The position numbers and the translations under genes were made by a program. The notes below the pieces were generated by a model, which had not been told where the DNA came from, did not search any database, and saw only the letters and a program-made list of their open reading frames with translations. From an uncultured Bacteroidales bacterium (lineage in GTDB: Bacteria; Bacteroidota; Bacteroidia; Bacteroidales; Muribaculaceae): a stretch of 54,173 bases of DNA. The stretch lies in contig CAMWNF010000005.1 in assembly GCA_947175535.1 (NCBI GenBank), positions 1-54,173 on the forward strand, in the 5' to 3' direction. Numbering within the stretch: position 1 is the stretch's first letter; every line of letters starts with the position of its first letter. This document shows positions 8,352 through 31,600 of the stretch, piece after piece.

Positions 8352-13693
<5,342 letters not shown>

Positions 13694-15409: not shown

Positions 15410-17314
15410 TTAGTCGCAGTCGTAGCTGTAGTCAGCCGTACCGTCGATTCTGTCGGGCCATCCGGGATTCTGATAGATGGTCGATTGTCCGTAACCACCT
15501 GTCAGATTGAAGTCTTCCAGAGGAATGGGCTCGAGGTAGTGCTGTTTCGGGAAGTTGTAGCCGTCGTATGCGACAGATGTAGCAGAGCTCTGGAGCGGGC
15601 GGATATAGTTAGATACGCCAGGCTGAGAAACGGCAGTGCTGTTCTCGATTGAGGCACCCCAGATTTCGTATTGCTTTTCCCAGAGATTTATGCCTTCAGG
15701 CTGATAGTTGACCATTTTGTCGAGCGCGCGCCAGCGTTTGAGGTCATCAAGGCGCATGCCTTCGGCGAAGAATTCACAACGACGTTCGCGACGGATGTTA
15801 TAAAGAGTCGGGTCAATCATCTGACCTTTTGACCACACGGCGAGGTCGTTTTCTTTAGTAAGGTCGGTAGCGGCGATAGTCTTGTTGTAGTCTTCTTCGA
15901 CGCCTGCACGTTTACGGAGGGCACGCCAGTATTTGTCGGCAGTGTCATCGATGCGGTTGTTGCGCAGATATGATGCTTCCATGTAGACAAGGTAGCATTC
16001 AGCCGAGCGGAAGAGGGGCACAGCAGAGGTGTTACCGCTCTGAACAGCCTGGCTTACATCGTTAGTTGTAACCCATTTCAACAAGTCATAACCGGTGCTT
16101 GATCTCTGCTGACCTGAACCCAGCAGGTTCGGACGATAGAAATAGATAGTGTCATTTTTGATTTTACCGTCGACTTCAACGGGATTGATGACGCGACCGC
16201 AGGGACGGATTGAAGCAGTCAGACGGCCGTCGCGGTCCTGGAATTCGTAGTAGCTTTCAGTATCGCCTTTATAGTTGGCGTCAGCGTAGATTGGAAGACC
16301 GTTTGCCATCACGTAGCTGTTGACGAGTGCGCGGGTTGCGCCGCAGTTACCACCAGAATTAAGGTGAGAGGTGCTGTTGTGCATCAGGACACCTGCTTTA
16401 TAATAGCGTGCAAGGATGACTTCGTCCTTATCGCCGAAAGGTTTCTCCCAGTTGTTGAACAGTGACTGATAGTCATCGTTGAGAGGATGATTGTCAGCGG
16501 CTTCTTTGGCAGCTTTCATTGCCTCGTCGAGGAAGAAGTTGATTTCAGCATCGGCTGAACCTGCCTTGAAAGCGAAGTCCGACCACATTTTAGCACCAAC
16601 CCACTTGCTGTTGCCCGGCACGAAGCAAGTGCCTGCGTGATATTTTTCCCAAGTTGCTTCGTAGAGAGCCACGCGTGCTTTGAGTGCGAGAGCTGCGTCG
16701 CGGGTCACACGACCGCTTTCGGGAGCTGTTTCCTTCAGCATCGATGCTGCCTTGTCGAGGTCTTCGAGGATAAAGCGTGCGACTTCGTTGCGGGGGTAGC
16801 GTTTGCTTTTGTCTGCAAGTACAGCCTGATTATCGGGAAGCATTTCGGTCAGGATGGGAGCGTCGCCGAAGTTTCTGAGCAGACGGAAATGTTCGTATGC
16901 ACGGAAGAAGTAACCTTCACCGATATAATGATTAAGATTTTCTTCAGAACCCTGAGCATGACCTGATGCCATAGCACCTTCTGCAGTGTTGATAAAGAAA
17001 TTGATAGAGCGGAGGTGTTCAAAATTCCATTCGGAATTGGTTTTGTCTACCGTTTTCTTTTCTCCTCTATAGAAAAGACTTTGTGCTCCGACTGTTGACT
17101 GGTTGTCGCTGTTGACATCTATATTGTAGGTGCCGACATAGTAGTCGTTGTTCTTGGGCAGATATTCATAGAACTGGTTGCACGACATAGCGAAATCCTC
17201 GGGAGATCTGAAATATGCCGTCTGGTCACCGAAGTCGAGAGGCTGACGGTCAAGGAAGTCGTTGCATGATGCGAGCGAAACGGCTGCGACTGCTAATGCA
17301 ATATATTTTTTCAT
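15410..17314 (-). CDS. susD: SusD/RagB family nutrient-binding outer membrane lipoprotein
   Basis: Lipoprotein signal MKKYIALAVAAVSLASCNDFLDRQPLD; C-terminal RRERRCEFFAEGMRLDDLKRWR typical of SusD. Confidence 0.93.
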   Translation of the reverse strand: MKKYIALAVAAVSLASCNDFLDRQPLDFGDQTAYFRSPEDFAMSCNQFYEYLPKNNDYYVGTYNIDVNSDNQSTVGAQSLFYRGEKKTVDKTNSEWNFEHLRSINFFINTAEGAMASGHAQGSEENLNHYIGEGYFFRAYEHFRLLRNFGDAPILTEMLPDNQAVLADKSKRYPRNEVARFILEDLDKAASMLKETAPESGRVTRDAALALKARVALYEATWEKYHAGTCFVPGNSKWVGAKMWSDFAFKAGSADAEINFFLDEAMKAAKEAADNHPLNDDYQSLFNNWEKPFGDKDEVILARYYKAGVLMHNSTSHLNSGGNCGATRALVNSYVMANGLPIYADANYKGDTESYYEFQDRDGRLTASIRPCGRVINPVEVDGKIKNDTIYFYRPNLLGSGQQRSSTGYDLLKWVTTNDVSQAVQSGNTSAVPLFRSAECYLVYMEASYLRNNRIDDTADKYWRALRKRAGVEEDYNKTIAATDLTKENDLAVWSKGQMIDPTLYNIRRERRCEFFAEGMRLDDLKRWRALDKMVNYQPEGINLWEKQYEIWGASIENSTAVSQPGVSNYIRPLQSSATSVAYDGYNFPKQHYLEPIPLEDFNLTGGYGQSTIYQNPGWPDRIDGTADYSYDCD

Positions 17315-17337
17315 CGTTGAAATTCGAGGTTAAGTAA

Positions 17338-20300
17338 TTAGAATGTGAGTTCAAGACCGATAGAGAATGTGCGGTACTGAGGATAACACTTTCCGGCACC
17401 CCAATCGCCGTTGCTGTCGAGAGCTTCAGGGTCGAAGGTCTTGATTTTGGAATGGGTGAAGAGGTTTTCAGCAGAGAAGTAGAGACGGGCTTTCTGCACG
17501 TAGCGTGAAATTTTTGTTGTCTCTGGGAGGCTGAAACCGATTGTGAGGTTCTTCAGACGGAGATATGAAGCATCCTGAAGGAAGCGGTCACAGTATTGTA
17601 CGTTGTTACCGTCAGTACGCAGACGACCGAAGTAGGGGTCTTCATAGTTTGCACCGAGTTCACTGCCGGCATAGCGGAAGTAATCGAGGTGGTCATAGAA
17701 GAGTGTTGTCTGCCACGGACGACCGCCATATCCGGCGAACGTAGCAGTACAAGTGTTGCCATCGCCGATGAAGTAGTCGCGTTTTCCAATGCCCTGGAAA
17801 TATGCGCGGAAATCGATGAATTTCCATTTAGCCTCGAGAGTGAAGCTGTATGCGTAGCGGGGAGTGGTGTTACCGATTACCACGAGGTCACCATGGTCAT
17901 CTACGGTCTGTGCGCCCTTGTTGATGGCGGGGTCGTTGTCCTGGTTCTTGTACATCAAGTCACCGCCGCCCCATTTCGAGCCGATTGCTGTTTGTGAGTG
18001 CTGAGCGAGATATTGAGCCATTTCGCGGTCGCTCTTGGCGATGCCTACGACTTCATAACCCCAGATTTCACCGTAGTTTTTACCCTGATACCAACCTGTG
18101 ATTTTGTTGTCGGAGCTCTGGTATTTAGTAACGACGCTTTTATAGTCGGAGATAGAGCCGCTGATGCTGTAACTGAAGTCTTTGCCGATGCGGTCGCGCC
18201 ATGCGAGTTCGAATTCCCAACCGCGTGTGCGGAGTTCGGCGTTGTTGGTCTTAGGTGCTTTCGCACCGAATACACCGGGGAGCGAGAGTGCGGGACCTAC
18301 CATGTCTTTGGTCGTGCGCTGATACCAGTCGAACGCACCGGTCAGACGTGAGTTGAGGAAACCGAAGTCGATACCTGCGCCGACGTTCTCGATTTTTTCC
18401 CAGGTAAGGCTGCTTGAGAAAGGAGTGTATGCGGGAAGGATGGTAACCTGCTGACCTCCGATAACGACCTGACCGGCGTTGGTTGCCATTTTTTCGTAGT
18501 AGGGATAGAACGAAGTGGTGTTCTGGTTGCCGAGTTCGCTGTAGCTACCACGGAGTTTCAGATAGTTGCAGACGGTTGTCAGGCTTTCCCAGAATTTTTC
18601 CTGGGCGATGTTCCAGCCGATTGAAACAGCGGGGAAGTAGCCCCAACGCTGGTTTTTCGGGAAACGTGAAGCACCGTCACCGCGCATATTGACTTCAAGC
18701 ATATAGCGGTCATCGAAGTTGTAGTTGACGCGACCGAATACGCCGACTGTCGACCACTCTTCGTTGACTTCTGAAATCATGGTGCTTTCGCCACCGATTT
18801 CTGAGGGGAAGAACGGACGGTCGGGAAGCACGATGTTGGTTGAAGCTACGCGGTCATAGTTGCGGTGATAACGTTCTGTCTGCATACCGACCATGAATTT
18901 GAAGTTGTGTTTGTCGTTGAAGGTCAGCTTATAGTCTGTGTAGAAGTTGGTAGAGAAGAAGTTGATAGAGCGGTTAGCCTTTTCATAGTAAGCTTCTTCA
19001 AGTTCGGGCTGTACATTGAATGTACCGTTATTATTGTCAATTTTGTGTCTACCGGTATCACCGAAAGAAATTGGTTGACGTGAGCCGTCAGGAGCCGTTA
19101 CATAAACCGGATTGAACTGACGGGTGTAGGGATTGTGTTCGATGCGGGAGTTGAGTTCTGCGTGGATTTGCCAGTCTTTGATAGGCTCGATGACGAGGTT
19201 AGCCTGGTTGTAGAACTGCTGGGTTTTGTCTTTCACACGACCGCCTTCTTCCATCGGCTGTATAAGAGAGTTGGGATGATATTCGCCGTTGGGGAGATAT
19301 ACGGGTTCGGTTGCATAGCGGCGACCGAGGTTGTGGAAGAAGAGGTTATTGAGAAGAGAAGGCTTATTGTTTTCTGTAGCGATGATACGGCTGGTCCATG
19401 TGAACTGCACGTAGTCGTTGAATTTCACGTTCACGCGACCCGAAAGAGCGAGACGTTTGTATTTTTCGTCGGCATGACGGAAAATACCAGCCTGATCAAG
19501 GTAGTTGCCCGAGAAGTAGTATTTTGTCTTCTGGTTACCGCCTGATACGGTCGCGTTGTGTTCCTGAGAAACAGCGACTTTCTTGATATATTCTGAATAC
19601 CAGTCAGTGTTGCCCCAGCTTGCGTAAGTTCCTTTCCACTGCAAATCGCTCTGAGCTTCGGTTGCATAAGGGAGTTCGCCGCGCTGATATGCGAGGAGCC
19701 TTTCAAGGGCAGCCTTGCCGAACTGAGCACCGCCTCCGGCATTGGTCCATGCATCATTCACCATGAGAGCCATAGTGTATGAGTCAACCATCTTGGGCAC
19801 GTTGATAGGCTGCTGGAAACGGACGTTACCGGTGTAATTGACACGGGTTCCCATTTCACCGCTTTTGGTGGTCACGAGGATTACACCGAACGGAGCACGC
19901 GAACCGTAGATGGCTGCCGAAGCACCGTCCTTGAGGACAGAGATGCTTTCGATATCGTTGGGGTTGATAGTGCTGAGGTCACCTTCCATGCCGTCGATAA
20001 GTACGAGCGGGTTCGAGTCAGAACCGTCGCCGATTGAACCGATACCACGGATGTTGATGTTCATTTCAGCTCCGGGAGCACCACCGGCGTCGTTGGTGAT
20101 ATTAAGACCGGCGACTGCACCTTGAAGACCTTGAACAGCATTGCTGATAGGACGGCTTTCGAGGACTTCGTTGTCGATAGTCTTTACTGCGCCTGTGGCA
20201 TTGATTTTTTTCTGCGTGCCGTAACCTACGACCACGACTTCGTTAAGAACGTTTGGAGCTTCTTTAAGATGAACGTCGACATGGTTGCGTCCGTCGAGCG

Positions 20301-20544
20301 CGATTTCCTGAGTCTCAAGACCGATGTAAGAGACGATGATAGTCGCTTTATCCGAGCTGACTTTGAGTGTGAAGTTGCCGTCTATGTCGGTGACGACACC
20401 TTTGCCGTCTTTACCCTTTTCATAAACTGATGCACCGATTGCAGTATCGCCGGTGGGCTCGTAGACGGTGCCGGTGACAGTCACCTGAGCCATTGTCACA
20501 AGCGCTGCCAGCATTGAAAATAATGCTATGATATATCTTTTCAT
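17338..20544 (-). CDS. susC: SusC/RagA family TonB-dependent receptor
   Basis: CarboxypepD_reg-like N-terminus; plug motifs NEVVVVGYGTQKK, VLIDGMEGDLSTINPNDIESISVLKDGASAAIYGSRAPFGVILVTTK; C-terminal beta-barrel ending TFSIGLELTF. Confidence 0.95.
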   Translation of the reverse strand: MKRYIIALFSMLAALVTMAQVTVTGTVYEPTGDTAIGASVYEKGKDGKGVVTDIDGNFTLKVSSDKATIIVSYIGLETQEIALDGRNHVDVHLKEAPNVLNEVVVVGYGTQKKINATGAVKTIDNEVLESRPISNAVQGLQGAVAGLNITNDAGGAPGAEMNINIRGIGSIGDGSDSNPLVLIDGMEGDLSTINPNDIESISVLKDGASAAIYGSRAPFGVILVTTKSGEMGTRVNYTGNVRFQQPINVPKMVDSYTMALMVNDAWTNAGGGAQFGKAALERLLAYQRGELPYATEAQSDLQWKGTYASWGNTDWYSEYIKKVAVSQEHNATVSGGNQKTKYYFSGNYLDQAGIFRHADEKYKRLALSGRVNVKFNDYVQFTWTSRIIATENNKPSLLNNLFFHNLGRRYATEPVYLPNGEYHPNSLIQPMEEGGRVKDKTQQFYNQANLVIEPIKDWQIHAELNSRIEHNPYTRQFNPVYVTAPDGSRQPISFGDTGRHKIDNNNGTFNVQPELEEAYYEKANRSINFFSTNFYTDYKLTFNDKHNFKFMVGMQTERYHRNYDRVASTNIVLPDRPFFPSEIGGESTMISEVNEEWSTVGVFGRVNYNFDDRYMLEVNMRGDGASRFPKNQRWGYFPAVSIGWNIAQEKFWESLTTVCNYLKLRGSYSELGNQNTTSFYPYYEKMATNAGQVVIGGQQVTILPAYTPFSSSLTWEKIENVGAGIDFGFLNSRLTGAFDWYQRTTKDMVGPALSLPGVFGAKAPKTNNAELRTRGWEFELAWRDRIGKDFSYSISGSISDYKSVVTKYQSSDNKITGWYQGKNYGEIWGYEVVGIAKSDREMAQYLAQHSQTAIGSKWGGGDLMYKNQDNDPAINKGAQTVDDHGDLVVIGNTTPRYAYSFTLEAKWKFIDFRAYFQGIGKRDYFIGDGNTCTATFAGYGGRPWQTTLFYDHLDYFRYAGSELGANYEDPYFGRLRTDGNNVQYCDRFLQDASYLRLKNLTIGFSLPETTKISRYVQKARLYFSAENLFTHSKIKTFDPEALDSNGDWGAGKCYPQYRTFSIGLELTF

Positions 20545-21204: not shown

Positions 21205-23721
21205 TTATTTTGTAAGTTTCAGAGTTGAATGGCTACCGTCTGCAGTGATAGCTTTGGCGATATATATGCCCGGAGCAAGAGAGCTGATGTCTGCCTTTCC
21301 GTCGTTTGCCGCAACTACAGCGATGCCGGAAAGCGTGTAAACGGTGATGGAGGAAGCTCCTGCTGCCGAAACACAATCTCCTTCGACTTTTATAGAGATT
21401 TCACCGCGTTTGTTACAGGCGATATCCTCGATGCCTGTTGTACGAATGACGGGTACTTCTGTCACACGTGGTTCGACGTTTGAGTTGAGACCGTAGGCAC
21501 ACCATTTAGCCATATTGTATTTATGGTCGAAAGGAACGTCGTTGCCCATGTCCCAGTAGAAGATACCGCCGAAATCGTTGTCGACCGTATGACGGGCTCG
21601 TTTATATGTCTGAAGCGGGCCGTCGTAATAGTATGTATATCCGTTGATTTCTTTTGAATCCAATTCCTCATCGGGAACGTAATCTTCATCGAAAAAGTCA
21701 TTACGGACACCTTTTATGTCAACTTTAGGAGTACCATCCTGATATCCTTTTGAGGTCGTAGTAGCGTAAGATGTTATGATTTTAGACGGTTCAAAACCGT
21801 ATTTTACGAATGCATCACACATATCAACGAAGTGACTGTATCTGCTGTGTTCGTTCTGAGGTCCGTATTGCTGGAATGTGAAGCCGTCGACATACTGCAT
21901 CTTGTCTTTGGGGAAGCTGTATGCGACATTGTGACAGGAGATATTGAATGATTTCCCTTCGGGAAGGGCATTACGGATTTCTTCAGCAAGAAGTCCCAGA
22001 GTAGTCTGAGGTCCGTAGAGCCATTCAAGGTCGAGTTCCACACCGTCGTAGCCTTCTGAGAGTTTTGCCAGATCGGCAGCGAAAATCTTGCGTTTAGCCG
22101 CATCAGCGATGGTATTTTCCCAGCCGCTGTGACTCTTTACGGAAATACGCACTTCATAACCTTCCATACCCTCATATGCGGTAAGCATTATGTCGCGCCA
22201 ATGGTCCTGAGAGTAACTGTCATAGCCGATTCGGTCAGCTTTGTCGTAGAGGTATGCTGCGTGGGCCTTCATCATTATTCCGGCAGTCTGGATTACGTCG
22301 AAACCGGGCATCCATAGTCCCTTGTTCATATGCGATTTGATATTGTCGGCATTGAAAGCGTTATACAACCAGAATGCAGTTTCATCAAGTTTTCCTTTGA
22401 ACCCTTTACCCAGTATCATTTTCTCTCCGCTGTTTCCGGTGGGAACCTGAACAAGTTCTTGACTTGACTCACTCTTACGTGCCGGCTTAAGCTCTCCGTC
22501 GATTATGAAGGTAAAATTATAACGCACGTCGCTCGGACTTCCAGATGGCCAGATTGCTATATGATGCCATTTTTTCGCTTCAATTGCATTTATGACTCTG
22601 TAGCGGTTACCGTCCACAATCACGTCAATAGATTTGTTGTCAGGGTTGCCGAGGCGCATCGATATGCCGTTCTTGCCGTCGGCGGTTTCTTTTGCGAATA
22701 TAATGGCACCTTCAGTCCACTCGTCTATGTAGAACCATGTCTCGGCAGTGTAAATGTTGTTGGACACATTAAGGGTTTCAGTGCCGCAGTCAAGCCATGA
22801 GTTTCCGTCAAATGATGCGACGCCTTTACGACCTTCGAATTCGGCAAGCATCTTTACCTCCCCGTTAGCTGTCGCATGATTATTGGGAGTAGCGTAATTT
22901 AGATGTCCGTCGTTGTTACTCTCGATGCCGAGTATGATAAGGTCATTGCTGAGAAGATACTGGTTTTTGGGAATGGCGCGGTCGTAGAAGCGTTCATTTG
23001 CGGTGTAAGCACCGTTGATACGGTATTTCATGGCGATGTTGTCGCTGGCATTAAGACTTGCCGTGCCGGTTATGACACCGTGATTATTGGCTTCCGTCGT
23101 ATTTTCGTCCCATATAGCGGTCTGCTCTACGATATTCGGGCAGTCCTTGTGGTCGAATTTATAATATGCCACTAATGCCTCGCGCTCCGGGCACCAGCGG
23201 TTAAGGGTATTCTTGATAAAATAGTTGAATTCATCGTTGAGTGCGGTATTCCAGATTCTCACTTCATCAATTCGTCCTTCATACCTGCCGCCGATAGTGA
23301 ATTCGCCGCATTTGGCGGGCATTGCGCCGAGAGAGTTGACGTCGGTTGTGTTACCGTTGACGAGAACAGTGGTTTTGTCTCCGTCAGTAACGATTGTAAG
23401 TTGAGCCCATTTTCCATGAGCCATATTACCTGACTTTATTTCAGCAGTGTTATTGCCGACCTTTGCCACGATTGTTCCTTCTTTGCCTAATGAGACGCTC
23501 CAGCTGTCGGCAGCCGACAGTAAAGTTGCTCCTTCGGTCCAGACGGTTGGGTTGAACCATAGCTGTATTGTGTAATTCTGAGCACCGTCGAGTTTTGTAA
23601 GACGGTCACATGTCACGCGTGCGTCGCCCGCAAGCGTGAGGTCGTAGTTTGTAGCTACGCCGTAGGCGCTGCCTATAGAGCCTGCGCATAGTGCCAAGGC
23701 GAGCAAAAGCTCTTTTCGCAT
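21205..23721 (-). CDS. Secreted GH18 glycosidase with N-terminal LamG-like domains and T9SS-like C-terminal sorting domain
   Basis: Signal peptide MRKELLLALALCAGSIGSAYG; two LamG-like repeats (..GRYEGRIDEVRIWNTAL.., ..GKGFKGKLDETAFWLYNAF..); GH18 motif YDGVELDLEW; C-term ITVYTLSGIAVVAANDGKADISSLAPGIYIAKAITADGSHSTLKLTK. Start reassigned to the Met at 23721. Confidence 0.8.
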   Translation of the reverse strand: MRKELLLALALCAGSIGSAYGVATNYDLTLAGDARVTCDRLTKLDGAQNYTIQLWFNPTVWTEGATLLSAADSWSVSLGKEGTIVAKVGNNTAEIKSGNMAHGKWAQLTIVTDGDKTTVLVNGNTTDVNSLGAMPAKCGEFTIGGRYEGRIDEVRIWNTALNDEFNYFIKNTLNRWCPEREALVAYYKFDHKDCPNIVEQTAIWDENTTEANNHGVITGTASLNASDNIAMKYRINGAYTANERFYDRAIPKNQYLLSNDLIILGIESNNDGHLNYATPNNHATANGEVKMLAEFEGRKGVASFDGNSWLDCGTETLNVSNNIYTAETWFYIDEWTEGAIIFAKETADGKNGISMRLGNPDNKSIDVIVDGNRYRVINAIEAKKWHHIAIWPSGSPSDVRYNFTFIIDGELKPARKSESSQELVQVPTGNSGEKMILGKGFKGKLDETAFWLYNAFNADNIKSHMNKGLWMPGFDVIQTAGIMMKAHAAYLYDKADRIGYDSYSQDHWRDIMLTAYEGMEGYEVRISVKSHSGWENTIADAAKRKIFAADLAKLSEGYDGVELDLEWLYGPQTTLGLLAEEIRNALPEGKSFNISCHNVAYSFPKDKMQYVDGFTFQQYGPQNEHSRYSHFVDMCDAFVKYGFEPSKIITSYATTTSKGYQDGTPKVDIKGVRNDFFDEDYVPDEELDSKEINGYTYYYDGPLQTYKRARHTVDNDFGGIFYWDMGNDVPFDHKYNMAKWCAYGLNSNVEPRVTEVPVIRTTGIEDIACNKRGEISIKVEGDCVSAAGASSITVYTLSGIAVVAANDGKADISSLAPGIYIAKAITADGSHSTLKLTK

Positions 23722-23779
23722 AGGGATTAGTTTTTGGTATTTAGTTGATAATAAGGCGGAGAGATGTAATGGATGCTTA

Positions 23780-23819
23780 ATAATTCCGCGACGCCCCGGA
23801 TTGAGCGTCACGGAATTAT
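23780..23819 (-). promoter_or_regulatory. Intercistronic RNA hairpin between the 363-aa gene and the GH18 gene
   Basis: Minus-strand RNA AUAAUUCCGUGACGC-N10-GCGUCGCGGAAUUAU: 15-bp stem with one G-U; no strong T-tract. Confidence 0.55.
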
Positions 23820-24940: not shown

Positions 24941-25060
24941 GTTGATTTAATTAAGGTTTGTAAATAGTTTTGTTGTTATTTGTTTGTTAGACGTTTTTGA
25001 ATTTAGGTCGGGGAGGGCGAGCGCGCATCTGATTATATGTGAACTGCCTCGAATGCGATG

Positions 25061-25068
25061 CAAAATTA
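25061..25068 (-). promoter_or_regulatory. Candidate -7 box for the minus-strand PUL operon
   Basis: Minus-strand TAATTTTG (TAnnTTTG) in the divergent intergenic region; no clear -33 TTTG at the canonical distance. Confidence 0.3.
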
Positions 25069-25342
25069 TGTTTAGAAATAATTATGCGATGTTCGATTTT
25101 TTACAAATAATATCTAAATTTGTCCAACAATTGCGTTGAAAAATGATTTTTGCTCAATTTGGAGCTTTTTTGAACATTGCGCACCCGATTTATTTTGTAA
25201 ATTCGCATTGCAGTCAGAGTTAGGCTGATAGCGTTGCTAAAAATTACTTCGGACAATTTCGTACAATGTCTGTTTTTGTTTAATTTAATCCGGAAATCCG
25301 CTTTGAAAGCTGTTCCGACCGATAAATCAACCATAAATCAAC

Positions 25343-26485
25343 ATGAATAAATACAAATTCTTTTCAGCGCGTCTCGTTATCTTGTTGTCGGCAAGTTTTA
25401 CTGCCTGTATCCCGGCATTATCGCAGGCGGCTTTTCTTGACAGCTGTTTCGAAACACGGACAATGCTTTTTTCGGGAGGCGACGGCATATCGAAGAATTA
25501 CCGTATTCCTGCGCTTGCAACGACAGCTGACGGCACAATCGTCGCCGTTGCAGACCGACGTCTTGATTCTAACAAGGATTTGCCGGGAAGGATTGATGTC
25601 GTTTGCCGCACATCTTCCGACGGAGGCTATACATGGAGTCCGGTTTATGAAGTCGTTGTCCATGACGACGGAGGTGGTTACGGAGACCCTGCCCTCGGCT
25701 ACGACCCGAAATCTGGCGATTTGGTCTGTGTCGTCACCCACGGCAACGGTCTGTGGGAGTCGGTAATCGGCGATCACCCTTATATTAATGTATTACGGAG
25801 TTCTGATGACGGCAGGACATGGAGCGCGCCGGTCGACATAACTCCTTCACTTTTCTCTCAGACCGAAGGCGAGGCGCCTGTGACGGCTGTCAGTGCATTC
25901 GCCACGTCGGGCAGGATTCTGACCGACTCGCTCGGTGACATGTGGTTTGTGCTTATAGTGCGACCTGAAATAAAGAAATGGACAAACTTAAACTGTTATG
26001 CGTGCCGCAGTACTGACGGCGGGCATACATGGTCGGCGCTACCGGTCTGTGTAGACAAAAATGCCGACGAGTCGAAGCTTGTCGAACTTCCCGATGGCTC
26101 GCTGCTGATGAGTATCCGCAACCGCGACAAAGTCAACCGCAAGTTCGCCGTGAGCCATGACCGGGGACTGACTTGGTCTGAGCCGTCAACGGTTTCGACT
26201 CTCCCCGACCCGAACTGCAACGGAGATATAATGCTGATGCCCGACGGCTCGCTTATCCACAGTATTCCCAACCATGCGAAAAACCGCACGAATATATCGC
26301 TCTTCAAATCGACCGACAACGGAGCGACCTGGTCGAAAATAGTGGAAATGTGTCCGGTTCACAGTGCTTATTCGGCATTGACGCAGATTGACGGTTCGAC
26401 AATCGGTGTTCTGACAGAGGAAGCGTCCTCGTTAGGAGGTCTGCGACTGTGGTTTTCACGAATCAATCTTGATAAAATCAAATGA
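25343..26485 (+). CDS. GH33 exo-alpha-sialidase
   Basis: YRIPAL (FRIP-like) motif plus five Asp-box repeats: SSDGGYTWSP, SSDDGRTWSA, STDGGHTWSA, SHDRGLTWSE, STDNGATWSK; signal peptide. Confidence 0.93.
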   Translation: MNKYKFFSARLVILLSASFTACIPALSQAAFLDSCFETRTMLFSGGDGISKNYRIPALATTADGTIVAVADRRLDSNKDLPGRIDVVCRTSSDGGYTWSPVYEVVVHDDGGGYGDPALGYDPKSGDLVCVVTHGNGLWESVIGDHPYINVLRSSDDGRTWSAPVDITPSLFSQTEGEAPVTAVSAFATSGRILTDSLGDMWFVLIVRPEIKKWTNLNCYACRSTDGGHTWSALPVCVDKNADESKLVELPDGSLLMSIRNRDKVNRKFAVSHDRGLTWSEPSTVSTLPDPNCNGDIMLMPDGSLIHSIPNHAKNRTNISLFKSTDNGATWSKIVEMCPVHSAYSALTQIDGSTIGVLTEEASSLGGLRLWFSRINLDKIK

Positions 26486-29400
26486 GTAAGCGTTCGCTCG
26501 CCGCTGTCGTACTTGTGGCGTTCGCCTTTTTGACTCAGGCGGCAGAATATCTGTGGCGCAACATTTCTCTTGACGCAGGTCTGTCGCACAGCAACGTTAC
26601 GGCTATCACACGCGACAATCGCGGTTTCATCTGGATTGGCACACGCTTCGGTCTCAACCGTTACGATTTTGAAAACGTCGTCAACTTCTATCATGACCCT
26701 GACAATGCGAAGACAATTCCTGATAATTCAATACGTGCGCTTTTCACCGACAGCCGAGGCAACATATGGGTCGCAGGCGAGTCAGGTGTAGCGGTGAGTC
26801 GCGACGGCAGGACTTTCGAACGAATCACAATCGATGGCACTCCCATTAATGCCCGCTCGTTTCACGAAGAGGGTGACGGTCTGCTTATGGGCAGTGCCGG
26901 CGTGATTTATTACTATGATTACAATTCGGGAGCTATCGCCCCCTTGCAGACCCGCGGAGGCTCGTCTTATTTTTACACCGATATAATAAGCCGCGGAAAT
27001 AATTTCTATGTACTTGTGACGCGGTGGGACGGTCTGTGGCTGTTCGACCGTACACGTGCATCGATTTCGAGGCTCGCCGGAGTCGACAGTAAGAATATAA
27101 TGTCTGCCTGCATAGACTCGCGCGGCACACTGTGGATGTCGCCTTACGGTCAGGGTGTGAAGGCATATGACCGCGCAGGCTCGCAGATTTTTGATTTTAC
27201 ATCTTCCAGCAGCGAGTTGCCGAGCGACATAGTGCTTGACATAGCCGAGTATGACAACAATATCTGGTTTGCGACCGACGGCGGAGGGGTCGCCATATTT
27301 CATCCCGATACTGAAACTCTTGAGCGGAGTCCGGCGCGCACTAACTCCGGACAAATAGCGTCAGTGACGACCCTCTACACTGATGACCACAATAATCTTT
27401 TCGCGGGAACCGTACGCGATGGAGCTGCATCCGTGCTACCGGTCGCCATGCACACATTTCACAGCAGCCGTCATTCTCTTTCGGCTATAACCTCGGCATG
27501 GATTGATGAAGCCGATGATATAATATGGCTCGGTGACGACGGGAACGGTGTCATACGTTACAACCTCGATGATGAGACCCTGACTCCGGTAGCAACCACG
27601 TCGGGGCTGAAAGTCATAGACCTGGTGGGTCACGACAATGCCACCCTCCTCGTCACGACTTTTGACAAAGGATTTTTTCTGATGGATAAGAAGACGGGGA
27701 AAATCACCCCGGCTCCAGCCGACCTCGAACGCCTCAGACAGCGCATCGGCAATCAGGCTCTCGGCATACATACACGCCGGCTTGCTGATAATGTAATCGC
27801 TCTTGTAAGCGACCGAATTTCTCTCTATGACCCTGCGACGAGAACAATCACCGGAGAGAGCGAGCAGCCTCAGGGACTCACAGGTTCGCTTCTGCCGTTT
27901 TTCAATCGCGATGGCAGATTGCTCTGCTACGGAACAAATTATGTCACCGAGTATGACCCTGTGACTGATGCTCACAGCTGCCTGTTCAGACTCCCGCGCG
28001 GAGAACGCATAAACTGCGCTGTTTTCGATGGCGCACATACGATTTTTGTTGCTACCGACCGCGGTATCAAGGCGTTTGATACAGTATCGGGCGAAATGTC
28101 AGCAATGTCGGATATCAATGAACGTGTGTCGGCACTCGCCTGCGATGGTGATGCACGTCTTTATATCGCCACCACACGTGCTATTTATCTAAAAGACCGT
28201 ACGACCGGCAACATAGTGGGTTTTGATGTCAATGACGGTGTTACGCCCAATGAATATCTACCAAATGCCACATTATTCCATGACAACTGCTTGCTTTTCG
28301 GAGGAATATATGGACTGCTGCGCATCCATCCCGATGAAGTCGACGATTTGCTCAGTGTTCAGAATGATCCGGCTATTAATCTTGCGGAGATAAAAATCGA
28401 CGGTATCGACTCAGGCGCGTCAATCACCGACGGTGCCCTGACAGTTCCTGCCAAACACTCCTTCGTGACGCTCTCGGTAATCGACAACGGCACTAACTCG
28501 CATCATCGTCATAAATTCCGTTACTACATCAGTCACCCCGGTGAGACAAAGATGATAGAGACCTTCGCGAGAACTGTCGACCTCAATTTTCTCGAAAGTG
28601 GAAAAAAATATGATATATCCGTCAGTGCCATGAGACCTGACGGCAGCTGGATTGACCCCCCCTATCATCTTGTTACAGTGGATGTTATGAGTTTGTGGTG
28701 GATGTCTCCGTTTTTATGGTTAGCCGTTGGATTACTGTTGGTTGCAGTTCTGGGCGGCCTGTGGATAAGGGTCTATCACAGGCGGAAAGCCCGTCTTGCC
28801 GCCCGTCTTGACACATACCGCCGCAACACTCTCGAAAAAGAACTGTCGTTCTTCGTCAACACAAACTATGCTCTCCGCACGCCCCTGACCTTGATATATG
28901 CTCCCGTGAAACTTCTTATCGAGCAGCTCCATGACGGGAAAGAAGTTGAGATTGTTCCGGCTCTCGAAATGATTTACCGCAACACGAAAAAGATGCGTGA
29001 CTCGATTGATATGGCTCTTCAGCTCCATCGTGTGACTGATATTAAGGATGATTCCCAGCTTTCGACTCATGATATCAATCGTTCGGTTTCGGAAGTGATA
29101 GCCACTCTGAAACATGAACTTGACATTAAGCATATCTCTTGCCGTCACACACGTTCGCAGGAGATGTTTCCCGCGTTATACGACCGCGACCGTCTCCGTG
29201 CGGTCATCGAGACTCTGATTCGTAATGCCATCGAACGGTCGTCAGACAATGCCGTAATAGAAATCCGGACCGAACTCCATGGAAATTTCATCCGCGTTTC
29301 TGTGTCAGACTCCGGAGAGCATCTTGACAATGATACTCTTGAAGGTCTGTTCTCGAAATATTTTCATGACGACAATTCAAAATTCGGTAATAGTCTCGGC

Positions 29401-30381
29401 TTTGCGTATGTACGCAATATAATTGATATGATGGACGGTAATACCGGAGTCGAAAACAATGCCGGTGACACCGGTATAACCGTGTGGTTCGAGTTTCCGG
29501 CAGCTCCGTCGCATGATGTCGAGAAATACATCTCACGTCGCCGCAGTGAGCTTGAGATTCCGAAAACCGGAGGAGAGGCTATCGTGGCTGACGTCGACAC
29601 CTCGGCACTGACGGCTGTTGTCGTCGAAGCTGATAATGACCTCGCGATATTCATCGCCGACCAACTTTCCGTTCATTTCGGCAAAGTACTTCATGCCTTC
29701 AATGGTAAAGATGCATTGATGCTGGTGAGACAATATCAGCCCGACATTGTCATTTCCTCACTTATGCTGCCCGTCATGAGCGGTCTTGACTTATGTCAGA
29801 CCTTAAAGAAATCTCCGGAAACGAGCCATATTCCCGTCATATTGCTTACCGCACTGAAAGATGATCCGCAGATTGCTGATGCATACGGCGCCGGAGCTGA
29901 TTCATATATTTCCAAACCATTCGACTTAAACGTGTTGCTTACGCGCTGCCGCAACATACTTCACTCCCGTTCGGTGATAAAGCAGCGTTACAGTTCGCAG
30001 CATGCGCCCGCGACAGGAGCGAAGCAATTGTCAAATGTCGATGAGTCTTTCCTCTTGAAAGTTAATAAGATAATCGCAGAAAACCTGTCAAATCCGGCGT
30101 TCAGTGTCGAAACAATAGTGGAAATGATGGCTTTCAGCCGTTCTGCTCTTTATGCTAAATTCAAGGAAGTGACCGGTCAATCCATAGGTTCGTATATCTC
30201 GGACTATCGTCTGCGCCGTGCGAAGGAACTGCTACGCGACAATACACTTTCAATAAGCGACATATCCGAGGCGTTGGGTTTCAGTTCGCAACGTTACTTC
30301 AGCACATTCTTCCGCGAACGCACTGGCATGTCGCCCTCCGCATTCCGCAATAATCCAAACTTGTCAGTTGACAATGAATGA
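26482..30381 (+). CDS. Hybrid two-component system-type regulator (propeller sensor/Y_Y_Y/histidine-kinase-like/receiver-like/AraC HTH) with degenerate phosphoacceptor sites
   Basis: Reg_prop-like repeats (GFIWIGTRFGLNRYD), TM segment, HK-like SFFVNTNYALRTPLTLI (canonical His replaced by Tyr), REC-like PDIVISSLMLPVMSG (canonical Asp replaced by Ser), AraC HTH ending RYFSTFFRERTGMSPSAFR. Confidence 0.92.
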   Translation: MSKRSLAAVVLVAFAFLTQAAEYLWRNISLDAGLSHSNVTAITRDNRGFIWIGTRFGLNRYDFENVVNFYHDPDNAKTIPDNSIRALFTDSRGNIWVAGESGVAVSRDGRTFERITIDGTPINARSFHEEGDGLLMGSAGVIYYYDYNSGAIAPLQTRGGSSYFYTDIISRGNNFYVLVTRWDGLWLFDRTRASISRLAGVDSKNIMSACIDSRGTLWMSPYGQGVKAYDRAGSQIFDFTSSSSELPSDIVLDIAEYDNNIWFATDGGGVAIFHPDTETLERSPARTNSGQIASVTTLYTDDHNNLFAGTVRDGAASVLPVAMHTFHSSRHSLSAITSAWIDEADDIIWLGDDGNGVIRYNLDDETLTPVATTSGLKVIDLVGHDNATLLVTTFDKGFFLMDKKTGKITPAPADLERLRQRIGNQALGIHTRRLADNVIALVSDRISLYDPATRTITGESEQPQGLTGSLLPFFNRDGRLLCYGTNYVTEYDPVTDAHSCLFRLPRGERINCAVFDGAHTIFVATDRGIKAFDTVSGEMSAMSDINERVSALACDGDARLYIATTRAIYLKDRTTGNIVGFDVNDGVTPNEYLPNATLFHDNCLLFGGIYGLLRIHPDEVDDLLSVQNDPAINLAEIKIDGIDSGASITDGALTVPAKHSFVTLSVIDNGTNSHHRHKFRYYISHPGETKMIETFARTVDLNFLESGKKYDISVSAMRPDGSWIDPPYHLVTVDVMSLWWMSPFLWLAVGLLLVAVLGGLWIRVYHRRKARLAARLDTYRRNTLEKELSFFVNTNYALRTPLTLIYAPVKLLIEQLHDGKEVEIVPALEMIYRNTKKMRDSIDMALQLHRVTDIKDDSQLSTHDINRSVSEVIATLKHELDIKHISCRHTRSQEMFPALYDRDRLRAVIETLIRNAIERSSDNAVIEIRTELHGNFIRVSVSDSGEHLDNDTLEGLFSKYFHDDNSKFGNSLGFAYVRNIIDMMDGNTGVENNAGDTGITVWFEFPAAPSHDVEKYISRRRSELEIPKTGGEAIVADVDTSALTAVVVEADNDLAIFIADQLSVHFGKVLHAFNGKDALMLVRQYQPDIVISSLMLPVMSGLDLCQTLKKSPETSHIPVILLTALKDDPQIADAYGAGADSYISKPFDLNVLLTRCRNILHSRSVIKQRYSSQHAPATGAKQLSNVDESFLLKVNKIIAENLSNPAFSVETIVEMMAFSRSALYAKFKEVTGQSIGSYISDYRLRRAKELLRDNTLSISDISEALGFSSQRYFSTFFRERTGMSPSAFRNNPNLSVDNE

Positions 30382-31600
30382 ACAGTCATTTTATCCGACC
30401 CCTTTCGGCTATCCGGTCTATATAATGGCAAAACCTGCCGGTCCCGGGTGTAATCTCGCTTGCGAATACTGTTATTACCTCGAAAAAAACGGACTTTTCG
30501 AGAATAGAGGCGCGAAAAATATGTCTGATGCCACACTCGAACGATATATCCGCACCTACATTGAGTCACAGTCGCTTCCGTCGGTTCAATTTACTTGGCA
30601 TGGAGGAGAGGCGATGATGAGACCTCTCGATTTCTACAGAAAGGCTATGGATTTGCAGCGTCGTTATGCCGGAGGTCGCCACATCGAGAATTGTCTTCAG
30701 ACAAACGGAACGCTGCTGACAGAGGAGTGGTGCCGTTTCCTACGCGACAACGATTGGCTCGTGGGTGTTTCGATTGACGGTCCGCAGGAATTCCATGACG
30801 AATATCGTCGCACGCGCGACCATCGCCCCTCGTTCATGAAAGTAATGCGAGGCATACGCATGTTGCAACGTTATGGCGTCGAATGGAACGCTCTGGCTGT
30901 GATCAATGACTATAATGCCGACTTTCCCGATGATTTCTATAATTTTTTCAAGGAGATAGATTGTCAGTACATTCAGTTTACCCCTGTCGTCGAACGACTC
31001 CGTGACTCCGGAGCGTTGGCACATGTTGCGGCTGAAGGAACGCTCGCACCCTTTTCGGTGACACCCCGGCAGTGGGGCGATTTTCTATGCCGGATTTTCG
31101 ATTTATGGGTGCGCGAGGATGTAGGTCGCGTTTTCGTTCAGATTTTCGATGCGACCCTTGCAAACTATATGGGCGTCGAACCCGGATTATGCACTCTCGC
31201 TAAAAATTGCGGGCATGCAGGAGTCATGGAGCATAACGGCGATGTCTATTCCTGCGACCACTTCGTTTTCCCCGAATATTATCTCGGAAATATTCATTCG
31301 TCGTCTGCCGTAGAACTGATGTACAGTCCCCGTCAGATAGCTTTCGGTCAAGCAAAGTCACAGTCTCTTCCCCAGCAATGCCGTGCTTGCCGCCATCTTT
31401 CGCTATGTCACGGTGAATGCCCCCGCAACCGTTTCGCCATTACAGCCGATGGCGAAGCCGGTCTTAATTATCTTTGCGAAGGGTATCGCCAATTCTTTGA
31501 CCACTCTGCGCCATACTTCCGCTTCATGGCGGAGGAACTGCGCAACGAGCGACCGCCATCCAATGTCATGGAGGCAATCCGACGCGGCATTTTACCCTGA
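30374..31600 (+). CDS. Anaerobic sulfatase-maturating enzyme (radical SAM, SPASM-type)
   Basis: GPGCNLACEYCYYLEK (CxxxCxxC) and C-terminal Cys-rich CRACRHLSLCHGECPRNRF. ATG at 30374 preferred over the TTG at 30368; overlaps the upstream stop by 8 bp. Confidence 0.9.
   Translation: MNEQSFYPTPFGYPVYIMAKPAGPGCNLACEYCYYLEKNGLFENRGAKNMSDATLERYIRTYIESQSLPSVQFTWHGGEAMMRPLDFYRKAMDLQRRYAGGRHIENCLQTNGTLLTEEWCRFLRDNDWLVGVSIDGPQEFHDEYRRTRDHRPSFMKVMRGIRMLQRYGVEWNALAVINDYNADFPDDFYNFFKEIDCQYIQFTPVVERLRDSGALAHVAAEGTLAPFSVTPRQWGDFLCRIFDLWVREDVGRVFVQIFDATLANYMGVEPGLCTLAKNCGHAGVMEHNGDVYSCDHFVFPEYYLGNIHSSSAVELMYSPRQIAFGQAKSQSLPQQCRACRHLSLCHGECPRNRFAITADGEAGLNYLCEGYRQFFDHSAPYFRFMAEELRNERPPSNVMEAIRRGILP

Follow-up and report, generated by a model that had tools for sequence, protein, structure and literature searches.

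A probably phosphate-independent PUL regulator from an HTCS clade without the phospho-acceptor His

INTRODUCTION

The canonical HTCS of Bacteroides (BT4663, BT4124, BT1754 and others) have in common a domain order, an AraC HTH, a PUL setting and the SHIP-DK clamp, and most of them have a propeller sensor. An S/CHIP-DK interface allows unphosphorylated HTCS receivers to restrain the HTH; altering that interface frees DNA binding without phosphate (PMC11253607). According to work cited in that paper, two AraC DNA-binding domains activate transcription when dimerisation domains fused to them bring them next to each other. Most non-consensus HTCS are tied to host-glycan PULs (PMC11253607). BT4236 of B. 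thetaiotaomicron has Gln848 in place of the His, and a phosphorylation-independent mechanism has been suggested for it (PMC11253607, 2024).

There are also precedents among other signalling proteins. DivL of Caulobacter has a Tyr for the DHp His and has lost kinase activity while keeping its function; it retains its ATPase boxes, senses DivK~P, and is described as PAS domains plus a histidine kinase module, with no receiver or HTH (PMC4211667). In Asp-less receivers or pseudo-receivers the phospho-Asp is replaced while the Lys and the T/Y pair are kept, and those with DNA-binding outputs are mostly of the OmpR/PhoB or LuxR types (PMC4395418, PMC12632262). ChrS of Corynebacterium glutamicum is a histidine-kinase pseudokinase with a reported function; it is presented as the sensor kinase of ChrSA and is no HTCS (PMC9491836).

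Here we analyse a regulator encoded on a 54,173-nucleotide stretch (hereafter the window) of contig CAMWNF010000005.1 (assembly GCA_947175535.1), from an uncultured Bacteroidales bacterium of the Muribaculaceae. The window protein has the canonical domain order, propeller included, but is without both phospho-acceptors and has degraded ATPase boxes. It resembles BT4236 as an HTCS without the phospho-acceptor His, a likeness of description and not of sequence; BT4236 is a single protein mentioned in passing, with a CSIP-EK motif, whereas here there is a clade, the Asp is lost too and the clamp motif is intact. With DivL, of which it is not an ortholog, it shares the Tyr at the His site, and its degraded G1 and G2 boxes place it outside the DivL type. 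Its receiver has the features of the known Asp-less receivers but belongs to an HTCS in which the kinase, too, is degraded. Individual precedents are known (BT4236, DivL, pseudo-receivers); in the part of the literature that was searched, we found no description of a clade without both acceptors, of a stepwise loss order or of DHp-HTH remnants.

RESULTS

The regulator and its acceptor sites

The regulator gene (26482..30381, + strand) is open in frame over 1299 codons by translation, and encodes in order a propeller sensor, a membrane helix, a DHp, a degenerate ATPase domain, a receiver and an AraC HTH. Pfam matched the propeller, HATPase_c, Response_reg and the AraC HTH in the 1299-aa protein, with no HisKA match at E<=1e-3. 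The protein has the periplasmic propeller, membrane segment and AraC HTH of an HTCS on a single polypeptide; trees give it common descent with intact HTCS, and synteny places it in a PUL. What it does not have is the phospho-acceptor His in the DHp or the phospho-acceptor Asp in the receiver.

The periplasmic sensor (aa 25-640; 26554..28401, + strand) matches Pfam Reg_prop, retains constraint as judged by conservation, and has solved structural relatives in 3v9f and 4a2l. A hydrophobic stretch at about aa 741-763 (28702..28770, + strand) is a predicted membrane helix, which in the AlphaFold model runs on into DHp helix 1. Alignment and model both delimit a DHp dimerisation hairpin (aa 787-866; 28840..29079, + strand) that is kept without its His. 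An earlier note on this DNA had claimed from the sequence that both acceptors are replaced, and this is borne out: codon, alignment and model place Tyr796 (TAT, 28867..28869, + strand) at the His position, where the H-box aligns to its homologs without gaps, and Ser1093 (TCA, 29758..29760, + strand) at the Asp position. In the model both residues occupy the locations expected of phospho-acceptors: Tyr796 is part of DHp helix 1, a long helix, and Ser1093 is found where receiver strand beta-3 ends on its C-terminal side. The model has a mean pLDDT of 72, with the receiver core at about 90, and by fold it matches histidine kinases in the PDB, including DivL (4q20). The possibility that another His or Asp occupies either site in register was rejected on the ungapped alignment and the model.

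The ATPase domain (aa 870-1015; 29089..29526, + strand) is degenerate by Pfam, alignment and conservation. It still gives an HATPase_c match of 55.7 bits and keeps the N-box Asn; the G1 box reads DSGEHLD, degraded as the earlier note had read it, and G2 (GNSLGF) is degraded as well. The receiver (aa 1043-1160; 29608..29961, + strand; Pfam and alignment) has the make-up of a pseudo-receiver, that is, a receiver fold without phospho-Asp in which the T1123/Y1142 switch pair and K1145 are kept. Its acidic pocket does read VVEADND as first reported, but only one of the two acidic residues is lost and not both, the first being retained as E and the second changed to A. The SHIP motif of the receiver-HTH inhibitory clamp is found at aa 1115-1118 (29824..29835, + strand; alignment, with the motif as defined in PMC11253607), and since the partners D1187 and K1226 are present too, the whole SHIP-DK motif is retained. 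The AraC-type HTH (aa 1190-1291; 30049..30354, + strand; Pfam and conservation) is the slowest-evolving domain of the clade. The intact frame and the preservation of propeller, receiver Lys and HTH thus stand as originally described.

The PUL and its promoter region

To the left of the regulator, in the PUL presumed to be its target, lie genes for SusC and SusD (15410..20544, - strand), a sulfatase, GH20, GH2, GH29 and other enzymes. Inside the PUL, 21205-23811 encodes a large protein that is LamG/GH18-like and ends in a weak T9SS sorting tail. The right-hand operon consists of a GH33-type sialidase (25343..26485, + strand), the regulator, an anaerobic sulfatase-maturing enzyme (anSME; 30368..31600, + strand) and then a second sulfatase. 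The sialidase gene and the HTCS start share a 4-base ATGA overlap, and the anSME start codon (ATG, 30374) overlaps the stop of the HTCS. G058 has the same operon with the same GH33-regulator overlap, its regulator being 37-38% identical. The gene content suggests that the glycans are sulfated, sialylated, fucosylated and of mucin type; the sialylated mucin glycans of the earlier note are likewise deduced solely from the PUL enzymes.

By gene layout, the 24941..25342 interval, which separates the PUL operon from the GH33-HTCS-anSME operon, is a divergent promoter region. It contains the pair TCGGACAAT/TCGTACAAT (25249..25267, + strand), two copies of TCGKACAAW spaced 10 bp apart and the sole two in the 54 kb. 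As candidate half-sites for the regulator they are suggestive only, the choice of this pair of sequence matches being partly post hoc. A search for a promoter motif conserved across genera found none; only a 21-bp repeat in G045, described below, stands out.

A single clade without the His

Ortholog searches took in the genus, family and order of the window together with further genera; a scan of genome contigs yielded only distantly related kinases. The named hits of the window, to Bacteroides plasmids, agree with an origin in the Bacteroidales. Six members of the ortholog group, window included, are without the His in the alignment. The states at the His and Asp positions are Tyr/Ser in the window, Leu/Ser in G006, Tyr/Asp in L056, Tyr/Glu in L060, Asn/deleted in L062 and Glu/Asp in L063, so that every close ortholog across five genera is His-less (Tyr, Tyr, Asn, Glu, Leu). 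Both residues are intact in L057-L059 (genus g28), in L061 and in orthologs from other families of the order; g25 also has orthologs with His and Asp intact. His, Asp and N-box Asn are all kept in 80/80 further HTCS sampled from the window's genus and family, and likewise in the full-length HTCS outside the clade in our alignments.

In a whole-protein tree built without the acceptor columns, the His-less proteins group as a single clade (support 99), and G006 pairs with the window (90). They do so again on a sensor-only tree of 730 columns (99/98), from which the sensor-less G006 is absent. Adding one intact sister to the clade is rejected (AU p=2e-4), and the clade holds after the longest rows are dropped (98/95). 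A convergent grouping through kinase decay is ruled out by the sensor-only tree and the omission of long rows. The sister group is the intact L057-L059. Parsimony gives one His loss followed by one Asp loss in a subclade of L060, the window and L062 (97/92). On this reading the phospho-acceptor His was lost, most likely to Tyr, before five or more genera diverged. Because the His-less state is common to independent genomes, we discard a sequencing error or strain-specific lesion; the earlier note had held that intact orthologs in the same clade would point to such a lesion, and the intact ones fall in the sister clade and farther out.

Constraint after the loss

If the His was lost once, the paths between His-less members fall after the loss. 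Identities along them are close to those of intact pairs in the sensor (29-34%), DHp (45-49%), receiver (38-53%, L062 having the lowest value, 38%) and HTH (51-59%), whereas the surviving ATPase domains are 17-27% identical against 38-46% in intact pairs. On a fixed tree, root-to-tip rates relative to the intact sister are raised about 2-8x in the ATPase domain, 1.2-2x in the sensor and 1.3-1.9x in the HTH. Between the window and L056 the sensor dN is 0.74 with a dS of 3.9, which is near saturation; dS is high or saturated between clade members generally. These comparisons are between members, as a search for strains of the same species found none. In the membrane-proximal YYY region, 6/15 conserved positions are kept. 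A collapse of the ATPase domain with the other domains constrained is the pattern expected if only phosphotransfer chemistry became useless.

Two members have gone further. In L062 (G177, an open frame of 1240 aa) an in-frame deletion has joined DHp and receiver by removing the whole ATPase domain, and the segment with the receiver Asp is missing also, with sensor, DHp, receiver and HTH retained. L063 (G159, 1154-1157 aa) has lost the HTH, and has Glu at the His position and Arg in place of the receiver Lys. Both are orphans without a PUL; L063, which has no HTH either, looks like a case of genuine decay.

Reduced and missing forms in the genus

Within the window's genus there are several shortened forms. 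The orthologous PUL of G045 encodes a 197-aa protein (L089:9773-10366) in which a DHp-like hairpin is fused to an AraC HTH, in the order SusC (76%), hyp202, DHp-HTH gene and anSME (70%); the DHp remnant scores 16.1 bits in hmmsearch against 10.8 for the best of 2000 shuffles. Upstream of this gene is an exact 21-bp direct repeat, TCGTACAA, at 9584 and 9605 of L089, a layout that matches known HTCS sites (PMC3878776). The G006 protein consists of a membrane segment, DHp, degenerate ATPase, receiver and HTH, the sensor being absent. Elsewhere in its genome, G021 encodes an AraC HTH protein (L090:9445-10185) that is anchored in the membrane and has neither receiver nor kinase; its HTH is about 50% identical to that of the window. 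The HTHs of these three forms fall in the clade on an HTH tree (96/99) and are set off from other HTHs by their identity (49-55%, compared with at most 36-37%). Since the G045 and G021 proteins have no receiver, they have no receiver-HTH clamp. A receiver-HTH protein of G030 (C97) was rejected as a reduced form, as its phospho-Asp motif is intact and it is located where the contig ends.

In other genomes of the genus the regulator is gone from this locus. G035 has a GH33-anSME operon (L105:1005-3499) with the same flanking sulfatases and the same GH33-anSME-sulfatase2 order as the window, with no regulator between, and G007 has the PUL and anSME with the regulator absent. The best reading of these gene contents is that in the window's genus domains are being shed and dependence on sensing is weakening.

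DISCUSSION

Phosphotransfer by the canonical route is impossible for the window regulator. Nor is the gene simply dead, because the His-less state belongs to a five-genus clade in which sensor, DHp, receiver and HTH were constrained after the inferred loss of the His. The earlier note's proposal of signalling without phosphotransfer therefore holds as regards both the missing chemistry and the living gene, while ligand-driven switching, its third element, is a deduction. The regulator probably works free of phosphate or as an unswitched activator. We put at about 60% the probability that it is an HTCS by descent that became a phosphate-independent, membrane-anchored transcription factor of its PUL after a staged loss of the phosphorelay. 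We infer its binding to the PUL promoter, its activity without phosphate and its control by ligand.

The proposed course of events would begin with loss of the phospho-acceptor His, followed by loss of the receiver Asp in a subclade; the ATPase domain, thereby freed, would have decayed and in one genome been deleted. Purifying selection would meanwhile have held the sensor, the dimerising DHp hairpin, the receiver fold and the AraC HTH, with the hairpin holding two HTH domains as a pair. With the SHIP-DK clamp retained, a receiver that cannot be phosphorylated is predicted to be OFF unless the clamp is opened otherwise. It might be opened by a trigger other than phosphate, loosened by the Asp loss itself, or shut; we prefer the first, a sensor-driven movement of the DHp, in which the propeller, if it is still in use, would on binding glycan shift the DHp helices and open the receiver-HTH clamp directly. 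The more specific picture of a clade of glycan-controlled, phosphate-free membrane transcription factors, with a mechanical signal passing from propeller to DHp to clamp and with relatives that trace a path to a minimal DHp-HTH activator, is tentative, and we would not bet on it at even odds. Besides the retained clamp, what speaks against the preferred explanation is that the sensor evolves somewhat faster than in intact sisters, that the YYY region is poorly kept, that the gene is repeatedly reduced or lost in the genus, and that L062 and L063 have no PUL, L063 being without an HTH as well.

The most serious rival is a constitutive or dosage-controlled activator, in which sensing is a mere vestige, the HTH, paired through the DHp, is permanently on and output follows expression of the GH33-HTCS-anSME operon. 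It owes its standing to the relatives in the genus that are sensor-less (G006), reduced to DHp and HTH (G045) or without the regulator, and it would fit the translational coupling of the operon in G000 and G058 and the adjacency of HTH and anSME genes in G045; but in the window protein and in distant His-less relatives the complete sensor remains under constraint, and the inhibitory clamp is retained, so that we consider this reading unlikely, at something over one chance in five. Given the repeated reduction and loss in the genus, the window copy could also be on its way out, with PUL regulation moved elsewhere and the gene early in loss, its frame open mainly by chance or for the sake of the HTH. 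The accelerated evolution and the regulator-free loci of G035 and G007 agree with such decay, which we nevertheless hold to be rather improbable in view of the intact 1299-codon frame, the conservation of sensor, receiver and HTH across deep divergence and the five genera that have the His-less state in common.

We give still less credence to a repressor or DNA-bound competitor, whose clamp or DNA binding would be fixed without phosphate so as to hold the PUL off or antagonise another regulator. An HTCS whose motifs deviate can act as a repressor (BT2391, PMC11253607), but the window protein, unlike that repressor, has the consensus clamp motif, and no competitor was identified. Finally, a Ser/Thr/Tyr kinase might act on Ser1093 or Tyr796, or phosphate might come from a partner HTCS. 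Ser is a common substitute in Asp-less receivers, and modification of this kind has been speculated upon (PMC4395418). With the Asp position varying in the clade (S, E, deleted, D), the His position likewise (Y/N/E/L) and the Mg pocket short of one Asp, such alternative phosphorylation is very improbable.

It is hard to test whether HTCS need phosphotransfer to signal or could rely on mechanical coupling via the DHp helices, since an intact HTCS may use the two together. The His-less clade is a natural experiment on this point, having lost the chemistry and retained the remainder. The series of losses, from the His and the Asp through erosion or deletion of the ATPase domain to the shedding of sensor and receiver, reveals what a regulator of a PUL can do without. 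An annotation of these genes as active histidine kinases would, by the same token, seem mistaken.
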